Below are positions 1,588-43,015 of a stretch of DNA of 64,000 nucleotides, piece by piece (within the stretch, counting starts at the first letter, position 1; every line of letters starts with the position of its first letter). Location: contig NZ_CP147518.1 of assembly GCF_037201965.1 (NCBI RefSeq), forward strand, positions 7,309,001 through 7,373,000, read 5' to 3'. This DNA is from Spirosoma sp. SC4-14 (GTDB lineage Bacteria > Bacteroidota > Bacteroidia > Cytophagales > Spirosomataceae). The position numbers and the translations under genes are program-made. Below the pieces are notes generated by a model. That model ran no database searches. It was not told the origin of the DNA and saw only the letters and a list, made by a program, of their open reading frames with translations.

Positions 1588-2619
1588 TTAGGCCGTTACC
1601 TTAGGCGTAGAATCCTGCGTCTGAATAAATTCTAAATCAGGCTTCGACTGATCGTCGACCGTTACCCGCCCCCGTTCTTTACGAACAATGCGCGAGAACA
1701 ACGAAATTTCCTGATCGAACAGAAAACGGAAAAACAAGCGAACATACGATGTATGGTATTTTAGGGTGTCGTAGTATTCAGGGGCCGTTTTTTTGATCTC
1801 AGGTAGTTTATTCCAGGGAATAGACGGGAAATCGTGGTGTTCATTATGAAAACCAACGTTCAGATTCACGCCATTCAACTGGCCATAATAGCTATAGGTT
1901 TCCTGTTCTGGATCGAGTGTTAAGTAATGCTCCTGAATCCAGCGGGCGCCCAGCGGGTGCAGACCCACCGAGAAAAACAGGCAAAGCAGCAGAAACGCCA
2001 GCGACTGCCAACCAAAGAACGTTACAATCAGGGCATCGAACGCCAGTTGGACAACAATATTTAGGGCTACCCATTTATCGATAACAGCCAGCTCACGGCA
2101 ACGAATGGTACGAATCGCCTGAAAAATCGGAAAGAGTAATAGCCAGAATGCTTTGCCGATCGAATAATTATTGATAAGCCGGGCCTCATACCAGTCGGGC
2201 AAATCGGCATCCAGTTCATGAACACCCTGAAAAGCATGGTGCTTGATATGGAAGTTTTTGAATGATAGAGCCGTTGGTAAAACAGTTGGCAGATTTGCAA
2301 AAATGGCAGCCAACATATTAGCCGTTGGCTTACGGAATATCAAATTATGTGCTGCTTCGTGAATACAGACAAAGAGCGTATGCGCCGGAAAAGCGCCAAT
2401 AAACCACGCAGTGGCTATAACTACCCACCACGACTGATCCCGAACCAGATAGGAGAGCCCGGTCATGAGGGTTACACAGCCCAGAATGACCCAGAATGTG
2501 GTAGGGTTTTTCTGACCAATTAACTTTTTGATTTCAGGATGGGCTTTCAGGATTTGCCGCGTACGGATACGATGCGGTTCAGAGGCATTAGAGCGGACAA
2601 AATCTGTTAATACTGCCAT
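1588..2619 (-). CDS. Sphingolipid (dihydroceramide) delta-4 desaturase-like fatty acid desaturase
   Basis: This membrane di-iron desaturase has three histidine boxes: HEAAH (residues 87-91), HIKHH (124-128) and HNEHH (258-262), with hydrophobic segments between them. From memory of human DEGS1 the likeness runs the whole length: HPEIK near the N-terminus, FANLP after the first box, GLHPL, EHY and TYSYYG before the third box, and HNEHHDFPSIP followed by a PEYYD stretch. DEGS enzymes introduce the 4,5-trans double bond of ceramide. Bacteroidota make sphingolipids, so a ceramide or related lipid is a reasonable substrate, but this is inference. The ATG at 2619 is preferred over an upstream TTG at 2640 because it fits the family N-terminus. 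The C-terminal 20 or so residues are extra and low in complexity. Confidence 0.85.
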   Translation of the reverse strand: MAVLTDFVRSNASEPHRIRTRQILKAHPEIKKLIGQKNPTTFWVILGCVTLMTGLSYLVRDQSWWVVIATAWFIGAFPAHTLFVCIHEAAHNLIFRKPTANMLAAIFANLPTVLPTALSFKNFHIKHHAFQGVHELDADLPDWYEARLINNYSIGKAFWLLLFPIFQAIRTIRCRELAVIDKWVALNIVVQLAFDALIVTFFGWQSLAFLLLCLFFSVGLHPLGARWIQEHYLTLDPEQETYSYYGQLNGVNLNVGFHNEHHDFPSIPWNKLPEIKKTAPEYYDTLKYHTSYVRLFFRFLFDQEISLFSRIVRKERGRVTVDDQSKPDLEFIQTQDSTPKVTA

Positions 2620-2963: not shown

Positions 2964-3158
2964 TCAGTATTGATCGATCGTTGGTTGTGTTTCTCCCTGA
3001 GGCAGTACATCTGCCTTTATTTGCTCAATTACACGCTCTGCCATTTGAGCTGCACCACGCAATGCTCCAAATATTATACAGAGGGGCAAAATAATAGGCA
3101 GGAAGAAAACCCACTGGAAAACCATGTACAAACGCAATTTTCTCATCGGTTCAATCAT
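2964..3158 (-). CDS. Small single-pass membrane protein, unknown function
   Basis: A 64-residue protein with a short basic N-terminus (MIEPMRKLR), one long hydrophobic stretch from about residue 12 to 32 (starting MVFQWVFFLP), then a charged amphipathic tail ending in a polar segment. The composition suits a genuine inner-membrane protein, while the overlapping plus-strand frame is cysteine-rich and unlikely. The ATG at 3158 is chosen over a TTG just before it; an ATG at 3146 is also possible. A hairpin follows the stop. I do not recognise the family. Confidence 0.5.
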   Translation of the reverse strand: MIEPMRKLRLYMVFQWVFFLPIILPLCIIFGALRGAAQMAERVIEQIKADVLPQGETQPTIDQY

Positions 3159-3580
3159 CAATTTTAGATTAAGTTAACGGTTTTTGATTTTAGTAAAAAG
3201 AAGAAGTTACTCAATAGGTCTGCTATCTGTTGATATTCAAAATTAAACTTGATTCAGTACAAAAACAAGCCTATTATTAAAATGTTTAATAAACCAGCAA
3301 TGTTCCAAATCGCCTTTTTTTTAGCCTTCTTCTCAGTTTAGTCCTTTTTTTTTGAAGGTATCAATTTTGATGCCAAAAGAAAAACAACCATATGATTGAT
3401 TGTCTGCTAATTAACAAAATAATAAGGACAATCTAACAAAGACCTCGAACAATTTAACCTATTCCTGAAACTACCCCTTACAATTTACCCACAAATGGTT
3501 ACAAATAGCAAGTGTCATTAAACAATAGAGGCCGGGAAAGTCGAAACTTACCCGGCCTCCGTAAAGTATTACTCGTTAAT
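3159..3580. other. AT-rich intergenic region
   Basis: A long AT-rich gap with short A and T runs. I see no coding sequence; it holds the presumed promoter of the small membrane gene and the terminator at 3528-3559. Confidence 0.5.
3528..3559 (-). terminator. Terminator of the aminotransferase gene
   Basis: A 9-bp GC-rich stem (GAGGCCGGG / CCCGGCCTC) with a 14-nt loop lies about 20 nt past the stop of the minus-strand aminotransferase gene. Confidence 0.6.
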
Positions 3581-5445: not shown

Positions 5446-6450
5446 TTAGTAGTCTTTAATTACTTTAATATCGTAATATGCCTTAATTTCTGCCTCAGTG
5501 GGTGTTTTGGCAGGGCGAACAAGCCGGAAGCCAACAAACGAAGCCGATGTCAGCCACCAATCCGATTTGGGGCTCTGCGGATCAAGTACTTTCCAGGCCG
5601 GGGCAGAAGGAGTCCGGGCTGCCGACCGAAGCACTTCAGGTCCATCGTCCCACGAACCGCCCCGCACAGAGTTGGGATATAGCATGGTAGTTGGGGCATA
5701 TGGCTCTTTTACTTTTCCGCTGGCAACCTGCTGATAATAGTCTTCGATGTACTGGTCTTGTGTCCATTCCATCACATTGCCATGCATATCGTAGAGGCCA
5801 AATGGATTGGGCTTTTTAGTGCCGACTTTCTTATAGCCACCACCACTATTGCCATTGAAAACGGCATAGTCGCCAAGCTGTTTCACATCGGCCCCGAATG
5901 AATAAGGGGTAGTGGTTTTGGCGCGGCAGGCATATTCCCATTCTGCTTCGGTAGGCAACCGGTAGAAAACACCCGTTTTGGCATATAACCATGCACAAAA
6001 CTTAATAGCGGCATACTGGGTCATATTGATAGCGGGGTAGCCTTCCCTACCCATTCCAAACGACATATCGACATAGGGAGGGCTTGGCCGCGTTGTGGCA
6101 TCGGTTTTAGCCAGATTGGCATCCGTTTGAGTGTATTTAGCCGCCATTTCCTTTTCCATATTGGTAAACGCAAACAGATCGTAGAGATCCCAGGTTACTT
6201 CATATTTACCCATGTAGAAAGGTTCGATCTGGACTTTATGCTGTGGCCCTTCGTCAGGTTTATGGCCTTTTTCGGCAGCAGGGCTACCCATCATGAAGGA
6301 GCCTCCCGGAATAGCAACCATTGCATAAACCTGATTACTGCCCGGAATAACCTGCGTATATGATTTAAAATCAGTGGTGGTTTGTGCTGAGGTACTTATT
6401 GCTGCACTAACGACAATAGTAACGGCTGCGCTGAGATGTTTTAGATACAT
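5446..6450 (-). CDS. Secreted SUMF1/formylglycine-generating-enzyme-like protein
   Basis: A 334-residue protein with a cleavable signal peptide (first ~22 residues, ending STSA-Q) and one FGE-sulfatase fold domain from about residue 40 to the C-terminus. Typical marks are IPGGSFMMGS, the PFYMGKYEVTWDLY motif, RLPTEAEWEYACRA, YDMHGNVMEWTQD, VRGGSWDD and the terminal FVGFRLVRP. The paired active-site cysteines of true formylglycine-generating enzymes are not evident, so it is more likely one of the many non-FGE members (structural or gliding-associated in Bacteroidota). It has no sulfatase neighbour. The ATG at 6450 gives a normal signal peptide. Confidence 0.8.
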   Translation of the reverse strand: MYLKHLSAAVTIVVSAAISTSAQTTTDFKSYTQVIPGSNQVYAMVAIPGGSFMMGSPAAEKGHKPDEGPQHKVQIEPFYMGKYEVTWDLYDLFAFTNMEKEMAAKYTQTDANLAKTDATTRPSPPYVDMSFGMGREGYPAINMTQYAAIKFCAWLYAKTGVFYRLPTEAEWEYACRAKTTTPYSFGADVKQLGDYAVFNGNSGGGYKKVGTKKPNPFGLYDMHGNVMEWTQDQYIEDYYQQVASGKVKEPYAPTTMLYPNSVRGGSWDDGPEVLRSAARTPSAPAWKVLDPQSPKSDWWLTSASFVGFRLVRPAKTPTEAEIKAYYDIKVIKDY

Positions 6451-39406: not shown

Positions 39407-42400
39407 TCACTCATTGAACTGGATACTATTCAACTGAATAATACCATCGTTAGGCTTATCGCGCTTCACAACCACAATATAAACATCGTGTTTGCCCATA
39501 ATGGGCTTATCGAATGTAGCCGTTACCTCCTTCGTGTTCTTCCAGTCGCCGGTTGCTTTATAGGGCGTTCGGTTTACGACCGGAGCCGCGTAGGAATCGA
39601 GCCGCACTTCTATTTCACCGTCCTTATTCAGGGATGAATACTCGTAGGTGAGCGACTTGATATTGGTCAGATCGACATCCTTAATCAGCACATAGGCTTT
39701 GTGATTGCCAGCACTCAACCGATTGCCCCAACGTGGGAAACCCACATAGGCGTCGGCATTGATGGTTTTGATTTTGGCCGGGCGAAGCGTTACCACATCG
39801 GTGCCGGTGAGCGGCCCCACCGCTTTAGCTCCCAGCGCGCCATTGTCGGTATAGGAAGCTAGTATAGTATACTGCCCACGGGCATCTTCAGGCTTATGGT
39901 CGTTCAGAGCCAGCGTACCCTGTAGTGGTACAGCTTTTTGCTTACGGGCATCGGTTAGCGAGAAAATGTATTTCACCATTTCCTGGGCATCCTGAACAGG
40001 TACCTGTGGGTGCGCACTCATGAGGTGATCTTTACTCCAGTTTCCACCACCGCCTTCGATGATCTTCTTGGCCAGCCGCTCAACCGTTCCGGGTTGCCCT
40101 TTGTAGCGGTCGGCTACTGCCAGGAAGGTAGGCCCCACCGAGGGTTTATCAATGGTATGGCAGGCCTTGCAGTCGCTGCTGGCAATTAGGGTCTTTCCTA
40201 ATGAGCCATTGCCAATCGACGCCAGATCCTGGTGTCCCTGCTGCGAACCGGTCGATGGTGCTCCACTCGGCTGGGCACTGTATTCGTATACGACCTTAAC
40301 ACGCTTCGGGTCAATCTTTTTGTCTTCTTTATCCGTTACCTTCACAGCGTAGGTAAACGGTTTGTCGGGCCAGTAGAACGATTTATTGCCGGTCGAAGCA
40401 ATGGCTACTTCGGGCTGGGCATTGCCAACCTTAACCAGAATAGTATCCATACCAACAAGCCCGGTTTGATCGGTCACTTTCAGAATGGCATTATAGACAC
40501 CCGGCTTTGTGTAGGTATAGGTAGCATTCGGCTTTGTAGAACCAACGGTTTTGCCATCAAATAACCACGCATAGGTCAGTACATCTTCATCGTCGAGATC
40601 GGTACCGCGCCCGCTAAATTTCACGCGCAGGGGTGCCTGCCCAATCGCTTCCCGAATTACGGGCGCATTTCGGCCATCGGAAGTTAAATAGGAACGGGCA
40701 TTCCGGATAGCCATAGCCACCGAGTCGACCACGGCAGCGCGGGCAATGGGAGCCCGGTTACCAGTATTATACTCGATTTTTACGAGTCGGGCGTCATCAT
40801 TGTCAGCACCGTAAACAGAGCCGTATTCGAGCATATACATGACACCGTCTTTACCAAATGCCAGGTCGATGGGCCGCCGAAAGTCGCCATTACCAGCCAT
40901 AAATGGCTCGTTTCGCAGGTAGTTTTCATCTTTATCGAAGCGGGCAGCTACCACCCAGTTGCGCATCCAGTCGAAAATGAACAAGGCACCGTCGTAGTAT
41001 TCCGGAAACTTGGTTTTCGACGGTGAGTTTTTGTTGTAGGTATAAAATGCGCCCGCCATTGCACTGCGACCACCCTGCCCCAGTTCAGGAAAATCTTTGG
41101 AAGCCGCATATGGATACCAGATCATAGCTGAATTGACCGGTGGCAGGTTTTTTAAGCCAGTATTGTTGGGAGAACTATTGACCGGCGCTTTAGGATCAAA
41201 CCGGGGACCGGCCACGTTAGTAGCAAAATCCAGATCGGGGTATGGCTGACTATTTCCGATAAACAATGGCCAGCCGTAGTTACCGGCTTTCTTGGCCTGA
41301 TTGAACTCGTCGTAACCGCGTGGACCAATCGTGCTGTCTTTTCCGGCATCCGGCCCAATTTCACCCCAGTACAGCACCGATGTTTTGGGATTGACCGCAA
41401 TTCGGTAAGGATTCCGCAAGCCCATCGTGTAGATTTCAGGGCGAGTAAGCCCACCATCTCCCTTTGGAGGAGGATTCGTAGCCGACCAGCCGCCAGTTCC
41501 TCCTTTGGGGCCGGAGGGGGCCTGAAACAGATTGCCGTCGGGAATGGTATAGGTGCCATCGGCCTGCGGACGAATGCGCAGTACCTTACCCCGCAAATCG
41601 TTGGTGTTAGCCGCCGACCGTTGTGCATCGAGCGTCAAATGATCGGGACGCTCATCGATTGGTGCGTAGCCATTGGATGGGAACGGATTGGTATTATCGC
41701 CGGTCGACAGGAACAGATTGCCCTCTTTGTCCCAGGCCAGCGAGCCACCGTGGTGCGCACTTGCTTCAAATTCGCCCGGAATTTTCAGCAGAATTTTTTC
41801 TGAAGCCAGATCGAGCGTATTGCCATTGTTGACCACAAACCTGGAGAGGTTATAGGTCGGATCTTTATCGGTATCGGGCGAGTAATAAATGTACAGCCAA
41901 TGGTTTTCGGAAAACTTCGGATCGAGCGTAATTCCCTGCACACCAAAGCCCTGCTTGGTCGTCACCGCGAATTTATGCATCACATTCCCTTTATTCGTCT
42001 TCGTATCATAGACCGATAGGTTACCGCTCCGTTCGGTGAAAAAGATACGGCCGTCGTCGGCAACAGCCAGTTCCATCGGCTCATTCAGGTCGTTGACCAG
42101 CACCGTTTTTACGAAACGATTTTCTTCGGGCATCACTACGGCATAGGCCTTCGAATAATCCAGCGCCTTGCCATCGCCCATTGTCCACTTGAGTCCACCG
42201 AGCAGATGCTGCACAAACAAGGGGTCGCTGAAACTTTCGTCGGTATGGCCACCACCCGTATAAAACGCCCGCCCACCGTCGAACTCATGATACCAGGCAA
42301 TGGGGTGATTGCTACCGTTGATGCCGCCATCGTAAGTATTTTCGTCCAGATTGGCCAATACATTCAGGTCGGAGTAAAGCGAACGGTAGTTGTACCACTC

Positions 42401-43015
42401 GTCGGTACGCTCCCAATGGTCGGGCAGATGAGCGGTAGAAATGTGTTTTTTATCGAGCACATCGACCGTTGCCTTGCGCACGTTGGAATTGCTCGGGTGG
42501 CTGGCAAAATAGCCACCTACCAGCTTATTATACCACGGCCAGTCGTATTCGGTGTCGGCAGCCGCGTGCACGCCCATATAGCCGCCACCGGCCTGAATAT
42601 AGCGTTCAAAGGCAGCCTGCTGGGTTTGATTCAGAACGTTGCCCGTTGTGCTCATAAACACCACGGCAGCATACTGTTTCAGACTATCGTCGTTGAAATA
42701 GTCGGCATTCTTTGTTGTATCGACCAGGAAGTTGTTTTCGCGGCCGAGCTTCTGAATGGCTGCGATTCCGAACGGAATCGACGTGTGTTTCCAGCCTTTC
42801 GTTTTCGAAAAGACCAGTACGCGGGGCGGATTAGCCCGAACCGGGGCTTGTGAAACAGGCTCTGTTGCAGTAGCCATTGTGGACGTCGACACCGAACCGG
42901 AACCCGCCTGGTTGGTTGCCGTATGTGTGCTCAGGCAAGCGTTTAAGCTCATGCTGAGACCAACCGCTCCCAGGAGCTGAAGCCAGCAACGGGCCGATAA
43001 TAGTAAGCGAATCAT
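39407..43015 (-). CDS. Multidomain lipoprotein: ThuA, PQQ-type glucose dehydrogenase, PKD, cytochrome c, CBM-like
   Basis: A 1202-residue exported lipoprotein (lipobox SLNAC near residue 27). In order: a ThuA-like glutamine-amidotransferase-fold domain (about 60-285, with GGYMGVHAAADTEYDWPWY), a glucose/sorbosone dehydrogenase beta-propeller (about 305-755; GSLAWDKEGNLFLSTGDN, MGLRNPYRIAVNP), a PKD domain (about 770-870; YAWLFDGKTVG), a class I cytochrome c (about 945-1035; heme motif CKACH, Met in DHLMSAHPQ) and a C-terminal carbohydrate-binding, CBM6-like part. It probably oxidises a sugar and passes electrons to its own cytochrome domain. The donor sugar is unknown. Similar fusions are common in Bacteroidota. 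Confidence 0.85.
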   Translation of the reverse strand: MIRLLLSARCWLQLLGAVGLSMSLNACLSTHTATNQAGSGSVSTSTMATATEPVSQAPVRANPPRVLVFSKTKGWKHTSIPFGIAAIQKLGRENNFLVDTTKNADYFNDDSLKQYAAVVFMSTTGNVLNQTQQAAFERYIQAGGGYMGVHAAADTEYDWPWYNKLVGGYFASHPSNSNVRKATVDVLDKKHISTAHLPDHWERTDEWYNYRSLYSDLNVLANLDENTYDGGINGSNHPIAWYHEFDGGRAFYTGGGHTDESFSDPLFVQHLLGGLKWTMGDGKALDYSKAYAVVMPEENRFVKTVLVNDLNEPMELAVADDGRIFFTERSGNLSVYDTKTNKGNVMHKFAVTTKQGFGVQGITLDPKFSENHWLYIYYSPDTDKDPTYNLSRFVVNNGNTLDLASEKILLKIPGEFEASAHHGGSLAWDKEGNLFLSTGDNTNPFPSNGYAPIDERPDHLTLDAQRSAANTNDLRGKVLRIRPQADGTYTIPDGNLFQAPSGPKGGTGGWSATNPPPKGDGGLTRPEIYTMGLRNPYRIAVNPKTSVLYWGEIGPDAGKDSTIGPRGYDEFNQAKKAGNYGWPLFIGNSQPYPDLDFATNVAGPRFDPKAPVNSSPNNTGLKNLPPVNSAMIWYPYAASKDFPELGQGGRSAMAGAFYTYNKNSPSKTKFPEYYDGALFIFDWMRNWVVAARFDKDENYLRNEPFMAGNGDFRRPIDLAFGKDGVMYMLEYGSVYGADNDDARLVKIEYNTGNRAPIARAAVVDSVAMAIRNARSYLTSDGRNAPVIREAIGQAPLRVKFSGRGTDLDDEDVLTYAWLFDGKTVGSTKPNATYTYTKPGVYNAILKVTDQTGLVGMDTILVKVGNAQPEVAIASTGNKSFYWPDKPFTYAVKVTDKEDKKIDPKRVKVVYEYSAQPSGAPSTGSQQGHQDLASIGNGSLGKTLIASSDCKACHTIDKPSVGPTFLAVADRYKGQPGTVERLAKKIIEGGGGNWSKDHLMSAHPQVPVQDAQEMVKYIFSLTDARKQKAVPLQGTLALNDHKPEDARGQYTILASYTDNGALGAKAVGPLTGTDVVTLRPAKIKTINADAYVGFPRWGNRLSAGNHKAYVLIKDVDLTNIKSLTYEYSSLNKDGEIEVRLDSYAAPVVNRTPYKATGDWKNTKEVTATFDKPIMGKHDVYIVVVKRDKPNDGIIQLNSIQFNE

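Follow-up and report, generated by a model that had tools for sequence, protein, structure and literature searches.

Which lipid would a DEGS-type membrane desaturase act upon in a bacterium of the genus Spirosoma? The question is raised by a gene at positions 1588-2619 (minus strand, stop codon included) of the window, by which we mean the whole 64,000-nucleotide stretch that was analysed (G000:C1:7309001-7373000, in a genome of 8.1 Mb). Read from the ATG at 2619, the gene encodes a protein of 343 aa; translation from an alternative TTG at 2640 would lengthen it to 350 aa. The protein joins an N-terminal Lipid_DES domain (PF08557; residues 4-36, positions 2512-2610, G000:C1:7311512-7311610, minus strand, placed by Pfam and a genome scan), which scores 48.6 bits with an E-value of 5e-13 against a curated cut-off of 23, to an FA_desaturase domain (residues 64-285) that also exceeds its curated Pfam cut-off, at 89.1 bits. 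Lipid_DES is the Pfam signature of sphingolipid delta-4 desaturases. An NCBIfam search with the same protein gave weak matches only, far under their cut-offs, and a sequence search of the PDB found no relative at E <= 1.

The first-pass annotation had described a protein that resembles the DEGS family from end to end, and not in its histidine boxes only, and this description is borne out. All five motifs that it named (HPEIK, FANLP, GLHPL, TYSYYG and HNEHHDFPSIP) are found in the translation, and the HxxxH, HxxHH, HxxHH box pattern expected of the DEGS family is present. Box 1 is HEAAH (residues 87-91, positions 2347-2361), box 2 is HIKHH (residues 124-128, positions 2236-2250) and box 3 is HNEHH (residues 258-262, positions 1834-1848), all on the minus strand, the last lying within the DEGS-type stretch HNEHHDFPSIP. 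Across 16 diverse aligned sequences, the invariant residues comprise H87, E88 and H91 of the first box, H124, H127 and H128 of the second and H258, N259, E260, H261 and H262 of the third, together with H221, E230, H231, N254 and D263. As in DEGS1 and DEGS2, these three boxes accompany an N-terminal Lipid_DES domain, and the alignment with human DEGS1 is nearly end to end: 38% identity over 321 aa, with an E-value of 2e-72 in a database of 125 proteins, the DEGS1 query being a sequence not drawn from a database record and the sole eukaryotic sequence compared. Local differences are found, such as GARWIQEHY in the window protein against GHFIAEHY in the DEGS1 query. Because both Pfam domains exceed their curated cut-offs, the match to the DEGS family is, on these scores, the product neither of chance nor of the boxes alone.

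Phylogeny had been suggested as a check on this assignment, and it groups the protein with the single DEGS1 query, apart from the acyl desaturases encoded by the same genome. That genome encodes three further FA_desaturase proteins, none with credible similarity to the DEGS1 query; only L004 was listed, at an E-value of 2.1. Meanwhile, all 122 bacterial Lipid_DES proteins extracted from loci match the DEGS1 query with at least 193 bits each, the nearest being L005 at 48.7% identity over 310 aa. In a tree that uses the three other desaturases of the host as outgroup, the DEGS1 query nests inside the Lipid_DES rows, beside L005-L007 (100/100); the outgroup branches are extremely long and the outgroup split has support of 84/91. 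A topology that unites every bacterial row to the exclusion of DEGS1 is weakly disfavoured (p-AU 0.038). Since the window protein falls with DEGS1 and apart from its own acyl desaturases, its place is not among ordinary acyl desaturases, and an enzyme of that kind is ruled out by the domain content and by the dissimilarity of the other host desaturases to DEGS1. On sequence grounds, the window protein is a member of the Lipid_DES family. Separately, one genus (g73) holds two Lipid_DES types, with L005 (genome G191) grouping with the DEGS1 query and L031 (G077) with other bacterial proteins; the presence of both types suggests horizontal transfer. Additionally, 61 pattern matches in viral contigs were considered as candidate viral relatives and rejected, none being a relative.

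The AlphaFold model of the window protein is largely helical, with a mean pLDDT of 85.7. Compared with the PDB by Foldseek, it gave two matches at E <= 0.001, each to a single chain from a different FtsHi motor-complex entry, followed in third place by the monooxygenase AlkB at a weak E-value of 0.077. Six matches at E <= 0.001 were obtained in a viral library, all named as desaturases or as a cytochrome b5-like domain protein. These matches fit the desaturase superfamily and do not discriminate between substrates.

To approach the substrate, the long-chain-base enzymes of the host are informative. All 13 candidates were scored, and four proteins of the family were found. One is a glycine C-acetyltransferase (L035, 695.8 bits, cut-off 493) and another is BioF-like (L037, 368 bits, cut-off 426). 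L036 matches cysteate-C-fatty acyltransferase (CFAT; PDB 28eh) at 5.7e-171 versus 8e-66 for serine palmitoyltransferase (SPT), and its top PDB match, 7u7h (6.1e-172), is named only as a synthetase-like enzyme. As judged by these matches, the recognised long-chain-base enzyme of the host is CFAT of sulfonolipid (capnine) synthesis. The fourth protein, L038 (G000:C1:1879442-1880458), is an orphan with 93 bits to BioF and 73 bits to the SPT model, and an SPT is its closest PDB match, at a weak 8.8e-15; through this protein the host may still have a long-chain-base synthase that escaped recognition.

The same picture extends to the genus. SPT exceeds its curated cut-off in 0/36 Spirosoma genomes (best score 355 bits versus 640), NF047600 being the one SPT model applied across the genus. 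CFAT is found in 35 of the 36, including 32/32 of good quality (completeness of at least 90%, contamination of at most 5%); the match in G540 has two internal stops. The single CFAT-negative genome, G537, is 71% complete and is also DES-negative, where DES denotes the Lipid_DES enzyme. Four Spirosoma genomes (G514, G525, G533 and G538) hold extra relatives of SPT and glycine C-acetyltransferase, with 255-337 bits to the SPT model. The DES and CFAT genes of the host do not cluster, lying ~2 Mb apart on C1 at 7.31 and 5.23 Mb. Elsewhere, CFAT-like matches of 46-48% identity were seen within open frames of 1113-1171 aa (G179:C1:441589-442785, G219:C210:29618-30817 and G254:C158:4317-5564), in which the acyltransferase may be fused to additional sequence.

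DES is core in Spirosoma and patchy across the phylum. It is present in 34/36 Spirosoma genomes and in all 32 good-quality ones, and the two genomes that lack it are G537 and the CFAT-positive G534 (82% complete). By comparison, 30/296 phylum genomes and 19/247 class genomes carry it, and Lipid_DES was found in 0/14 control genomes, Caulobacter vibrioides among these. Named relatives were taken from the best 80 of at least 580 confirmed stretches. Closest among these 80 are proteins of Spirosoma, Fibrisoma and Fibrella (78-90% identity to the window protein), with one MAG labelled Spirosoma (L149) at 65% only; next come Pseudarcicella, Arcicella, Aquirufa, Hymenobacter, Mucilaginibacter and Chitinophaga. 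The genus assignment has a second basis, in that genomes G520, G540 and G516 of the 36 agree in contig positions and scores with the named loci of S. luteum, S. telluris and S. fluviale. No conserved neighbour of DES was seen in the 97 neighbourhoods compared (101 taken, four without a DES frame dropped), the most widespread neighbour family occurring in 16/97.

How DES is distributed relative to SPT and CFAT bears directly on its substrate, and CFAT was searched directly in the Spirosoma genus, the phylum sample and the class sample. CFAT occurs in 108/296 phylum genomes and is nearly universal in the class (215/247), of which 19/247 genomes carry SPT. Seven of the 19 DES-positive class genomes (G033, G091, G099, G214, G261, G301 and G450) have SPT where 1.5 were expected, an enrichment with a Fisher p of 1.4e-4, kinship ignored. 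With CFAT there is no association (17/19 DES-positive versus 198/228 DES-negative genomes, p 1.0). SPT is lacking in the other 12 DES-positive class genomes, ten of which have CFAT; CFAT was not listed for G465 and G498, the latter 68% complete. Outside the class, an SPT-like enzyme under the curated cut-off accompanies DES in 20/20 DES-positive phylum-sample genomes, and such enzymes are common there with or without DES. The best NCBIfam model for L099, from a DES-positive genome, is SPT (514.8 bits), and the best PDB matches for L103, from a DES-negative genome of family f23, are SPT structures (4e-128). CFAT is missing from 12 of these 20 genomes (families f16 and f34) and present in the other eight (family f23).

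A further comparison covered 50 named DES-positive genomes selected from the 80 loci, three of them Spirosoma. SPT exceeds its cut-off in 15/50, namely Mucilaginibacter (13/13), Chitinophaga (1/1) and Saprospiraceae (1/2, scoring 640.7 bits, just over, and 633.7, just under). A Xanthocytophaga genome falls under the cut-off at 472 bits. Across Spirosoma, Fibrisoma, Fibrella, Pseudarcicella, Arcicella, Aquirufa, Sandaracinomonas and Hymenobacter, SPT exceeds the cut-off in 0/33 genomes, and all 33 have a match of 283-319 bits that resembles the host's own CFAT (287.5 bits). The DES family as a whole thus goes with sphingolipid synthesis, and Spirosoma and its near relatives have kept DES where SPT is unrecognised and CFAT or a CFAT-like match is present.

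In the DES tree, the window protein belongs to a clade of 14 of the 57 rows (100/100), which is not wholly SPT-free because both Saprospiraceae rows lie within it. The Mucilaginibacter and Chitinophaga proteins share the Lipid_DES domain and 61-64% identity with the window protein (among the best 80 of at least 580), but form a separate clade (98/98), and SPT is found in 14/14 of the named genomes; one row of this clade, L034, comes from a genome with CFAT and without SPT. L005-L008, from family f23 outside the host's class, likewise share Lipid_DES, with L005 and L007 being 40 and 41% identical to the window protein, but unlike it they group with the DEGS1 query (L005-L008 100/99; L005-L007 100/100), and unlike in the host, CFAT occurs alongside an SPT-like enzyme in all four of their genomes. 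Residues that separate the SPT-free from the SPT-bearing group exist, for example K versus E at position 121; other groups break the pattern, and such residues may just follow kinship. Comparison of the groups found no residue marking a sulfonate site.

Ceramide may be the general substrate of the DES family, because DES tracks SPT and not CFAT in the class, because Mucilaginibacter and Chitinophaga have SPT, and because f16 and f34 carriers have an SPT-like enzyme without CFAT, with Saprospiraceae falling in the window protein's own clade. In the SPT-bearing carriers, Mucilaginibacter and Chitinophaga, the substrate may be ceramide. For the Spirosoma host a ceramide product is unlikely: unlike DEGS1 and DEGS2, the window protein belongs to a bacterial host in which SPT is unrecognised and dihydroceramide is probably unavailable. 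A sulfonolipid substrate is probable because a search of the host for SPT, which starts ceramide synthesis, came up empty, and CFAT, which starts sulfonolipid synthesis, was found. The first-pass annotation had offered two products, sphingosine-type ceramides or a related lipid; the former is not supported for this host, with SPT unrecognised in genome and genus and CFAT found, and the latter is favoured. On balance, we lean slightly towards a DEGS (Lipid_DES) membrane di-iron desaturase whose substrate in Spirosoma would be a sulfonolipid and not a ceramide, with unsaturation of N-acyl-capnine as its most likely activity. Points that weigh on the other side include the distance between DES and CFAT on C1, the extra SPT relatives of four Spirosoma genomes and the failure to find a sulfonate-marking residue.

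DEGS enzymes bind two irons through their histidine boxes and, with O2, modify N-acylated bases of the 2-amino-3-hydroxy type. Capnine-based lipids differ from those built on a sphingoid base in having a sulfonic acid in place of the hydroxyl at C1 (PMC3463246), and by analogy the same DEGS reaction on this sulfonic-acid analogue would be the most economical reading. CFAT would couple cysteate with a fatty-acyl thioester, a reductase would then yield capnine, and N-acylation of capnine would give the sulfonic-acid analogue of dihydroceramide. The DES enzyme, using O2 and a histidine-bound di-iron centre, would abstract hydrogens from the capnine chain at C4 and C5, beside the 3-hydroxyl, and so yield a sulfonolipid with 4(E) unsaturation. 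In this scheme we infer the substrate, the position and geometry of the bond, desaturase as opposed to hydroxylase activity and the electron donor, as well as the metal centre, which is taken from the family.

The alternative that survives best is a hydroxylase, which would hydroxylate the capnine chain at C4 or C5 instead of introducing a double bond; we consider this unlikely. DEGS2 hydroxylates sphinganine at C4, and the weak Foldseek match to the AlkB monooxygenase points the same way. Two observations keep a hydroxylase under consideration: both reactions lie within the family, DEGS2 appearing as 'Sphingolipid delta4-desaturase/C4-monooxygenase' in PMC13161914, and the Algoriphagus sulfonolipid RIF-1 has a 5-hydroxy group on its capnine base (PMC3463246). 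In a passage of the same paper, a strain table whose column heading is absent from that passage marks Flectobacillus major, Dyadobacter fermentans, Cytophaga hutchinsonii and Cyclobacterium marinum with '+'.

It is distinctly improbable that the protein is an animal-type dihydroceramide delta-4 desaturase in a host that makes or imports dihydroceramide by an unrecognised route. Its DEGS sequence family, the SPT of its Mucilaginibacter (13/13) and Chitinophaga (1/1) relatives and the enrichment of DES in SPT-positive class genomes would all suit such an enzyme, but no Spirosoma genome (0/36) reaches the SPT cut-off, the best score being 355 bits against 640, and L038 reaches just 73 bits with the SPT model, despite a top PDB match to an SPT (weak, 8.8e-15). 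Enzymes of the FA_desaturase superfamily have many substrates. Least probable of all is a desaturase that acts on fatty acyl chains or on some other amide-linked lipid, such as an ornithine or glycine lipid: lipids of this sort are made by Bacteroidota, and Flavobacterium johnsoniae membranes contain sulfonolipids as well as ornithine, glycine and serineglycine lipids (PMC10025309), but the near end-to-end DEGS similarity, Lipid_DES domain included, and the three other FA_desaturase genes of the genome, which could serve acyl chains, both argue against it. A known bacterial enzyme of the desaturase superfamily also tailors a ceramide-like lipid; its target is the acyl chain and not the long-chain base.

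Returning to the sulfonolipid desaturase that we prefer, 4(E)-unsaturated bases were reportedly described by Batrakov in Cyclobacterium marinus (1998) and in Flectobacillus major (2000). If those reports do hold such bases, the product would already be known and the gene alone would be new. Unsaturated bacterial sphingolipids are already known from T. forsythia, whose ceramide phosphoethanolamine has been reported with and without a C4-C5 double bond (PMC9324278). A desaturation step is not described in the accessible parts of four papers on sulfonolipid synthesis (PMC10191378, PMC11211663, PMC9304779 and PMC5591296), and we found no report of a bacterial Lipid_DES enzyme among the titles and opening lines of abstracts listed by searches of an open-access library that covers few subscription papers. 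A genus-core DEGS homologue together with CFAT, and without a recognised SPT, would tie a specific gene to sulfonolipids that are unsaturated or oxidised. According to PMC10191378 and PMC3463246, sulfonolipids are relevant to gliding, to platelet receptors and to rosette formation in choanoflagellates, and the DES family comprises bacterial relatives of DEGS1, a human disease enzyme according to published abstracts. More generally, we would give roughly even chances to the proposal that a DEGS-family enzyme has been retargeted from ceramides to sulfonolipids, yielding 4(E)-unsaturated or C4/C5-oxidised capnine lipids in Spirosoma-, Arcicella- and Hymenobacter-type bacteria and so contributing a tailoring reaction to the synthesis of RIF-like bioactive sulfonolipids, within a family exchanged between bacteria and eukaryotes.

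Finally, several other features of the window were observed. Upstream of the desaturase gene, and likewise on the minus strand, is an open frame of 65 aa (2964-3161) that includes a hydrophobic stretch, and no tblastn match to it (E <= 1) was found in 81 relative loci. No RNA family reached its gathering score in the window. Further along, the minus strand encodes a protein with an FGE-sulfatase (sulfatase-modifying factor) domain at 5446-6450 and, at 39407-43015, a 1202-aa protein that combines ThuA, glucose/sorbosone dehydrogenase, PKD, cytochrome c and CBM6 domains.
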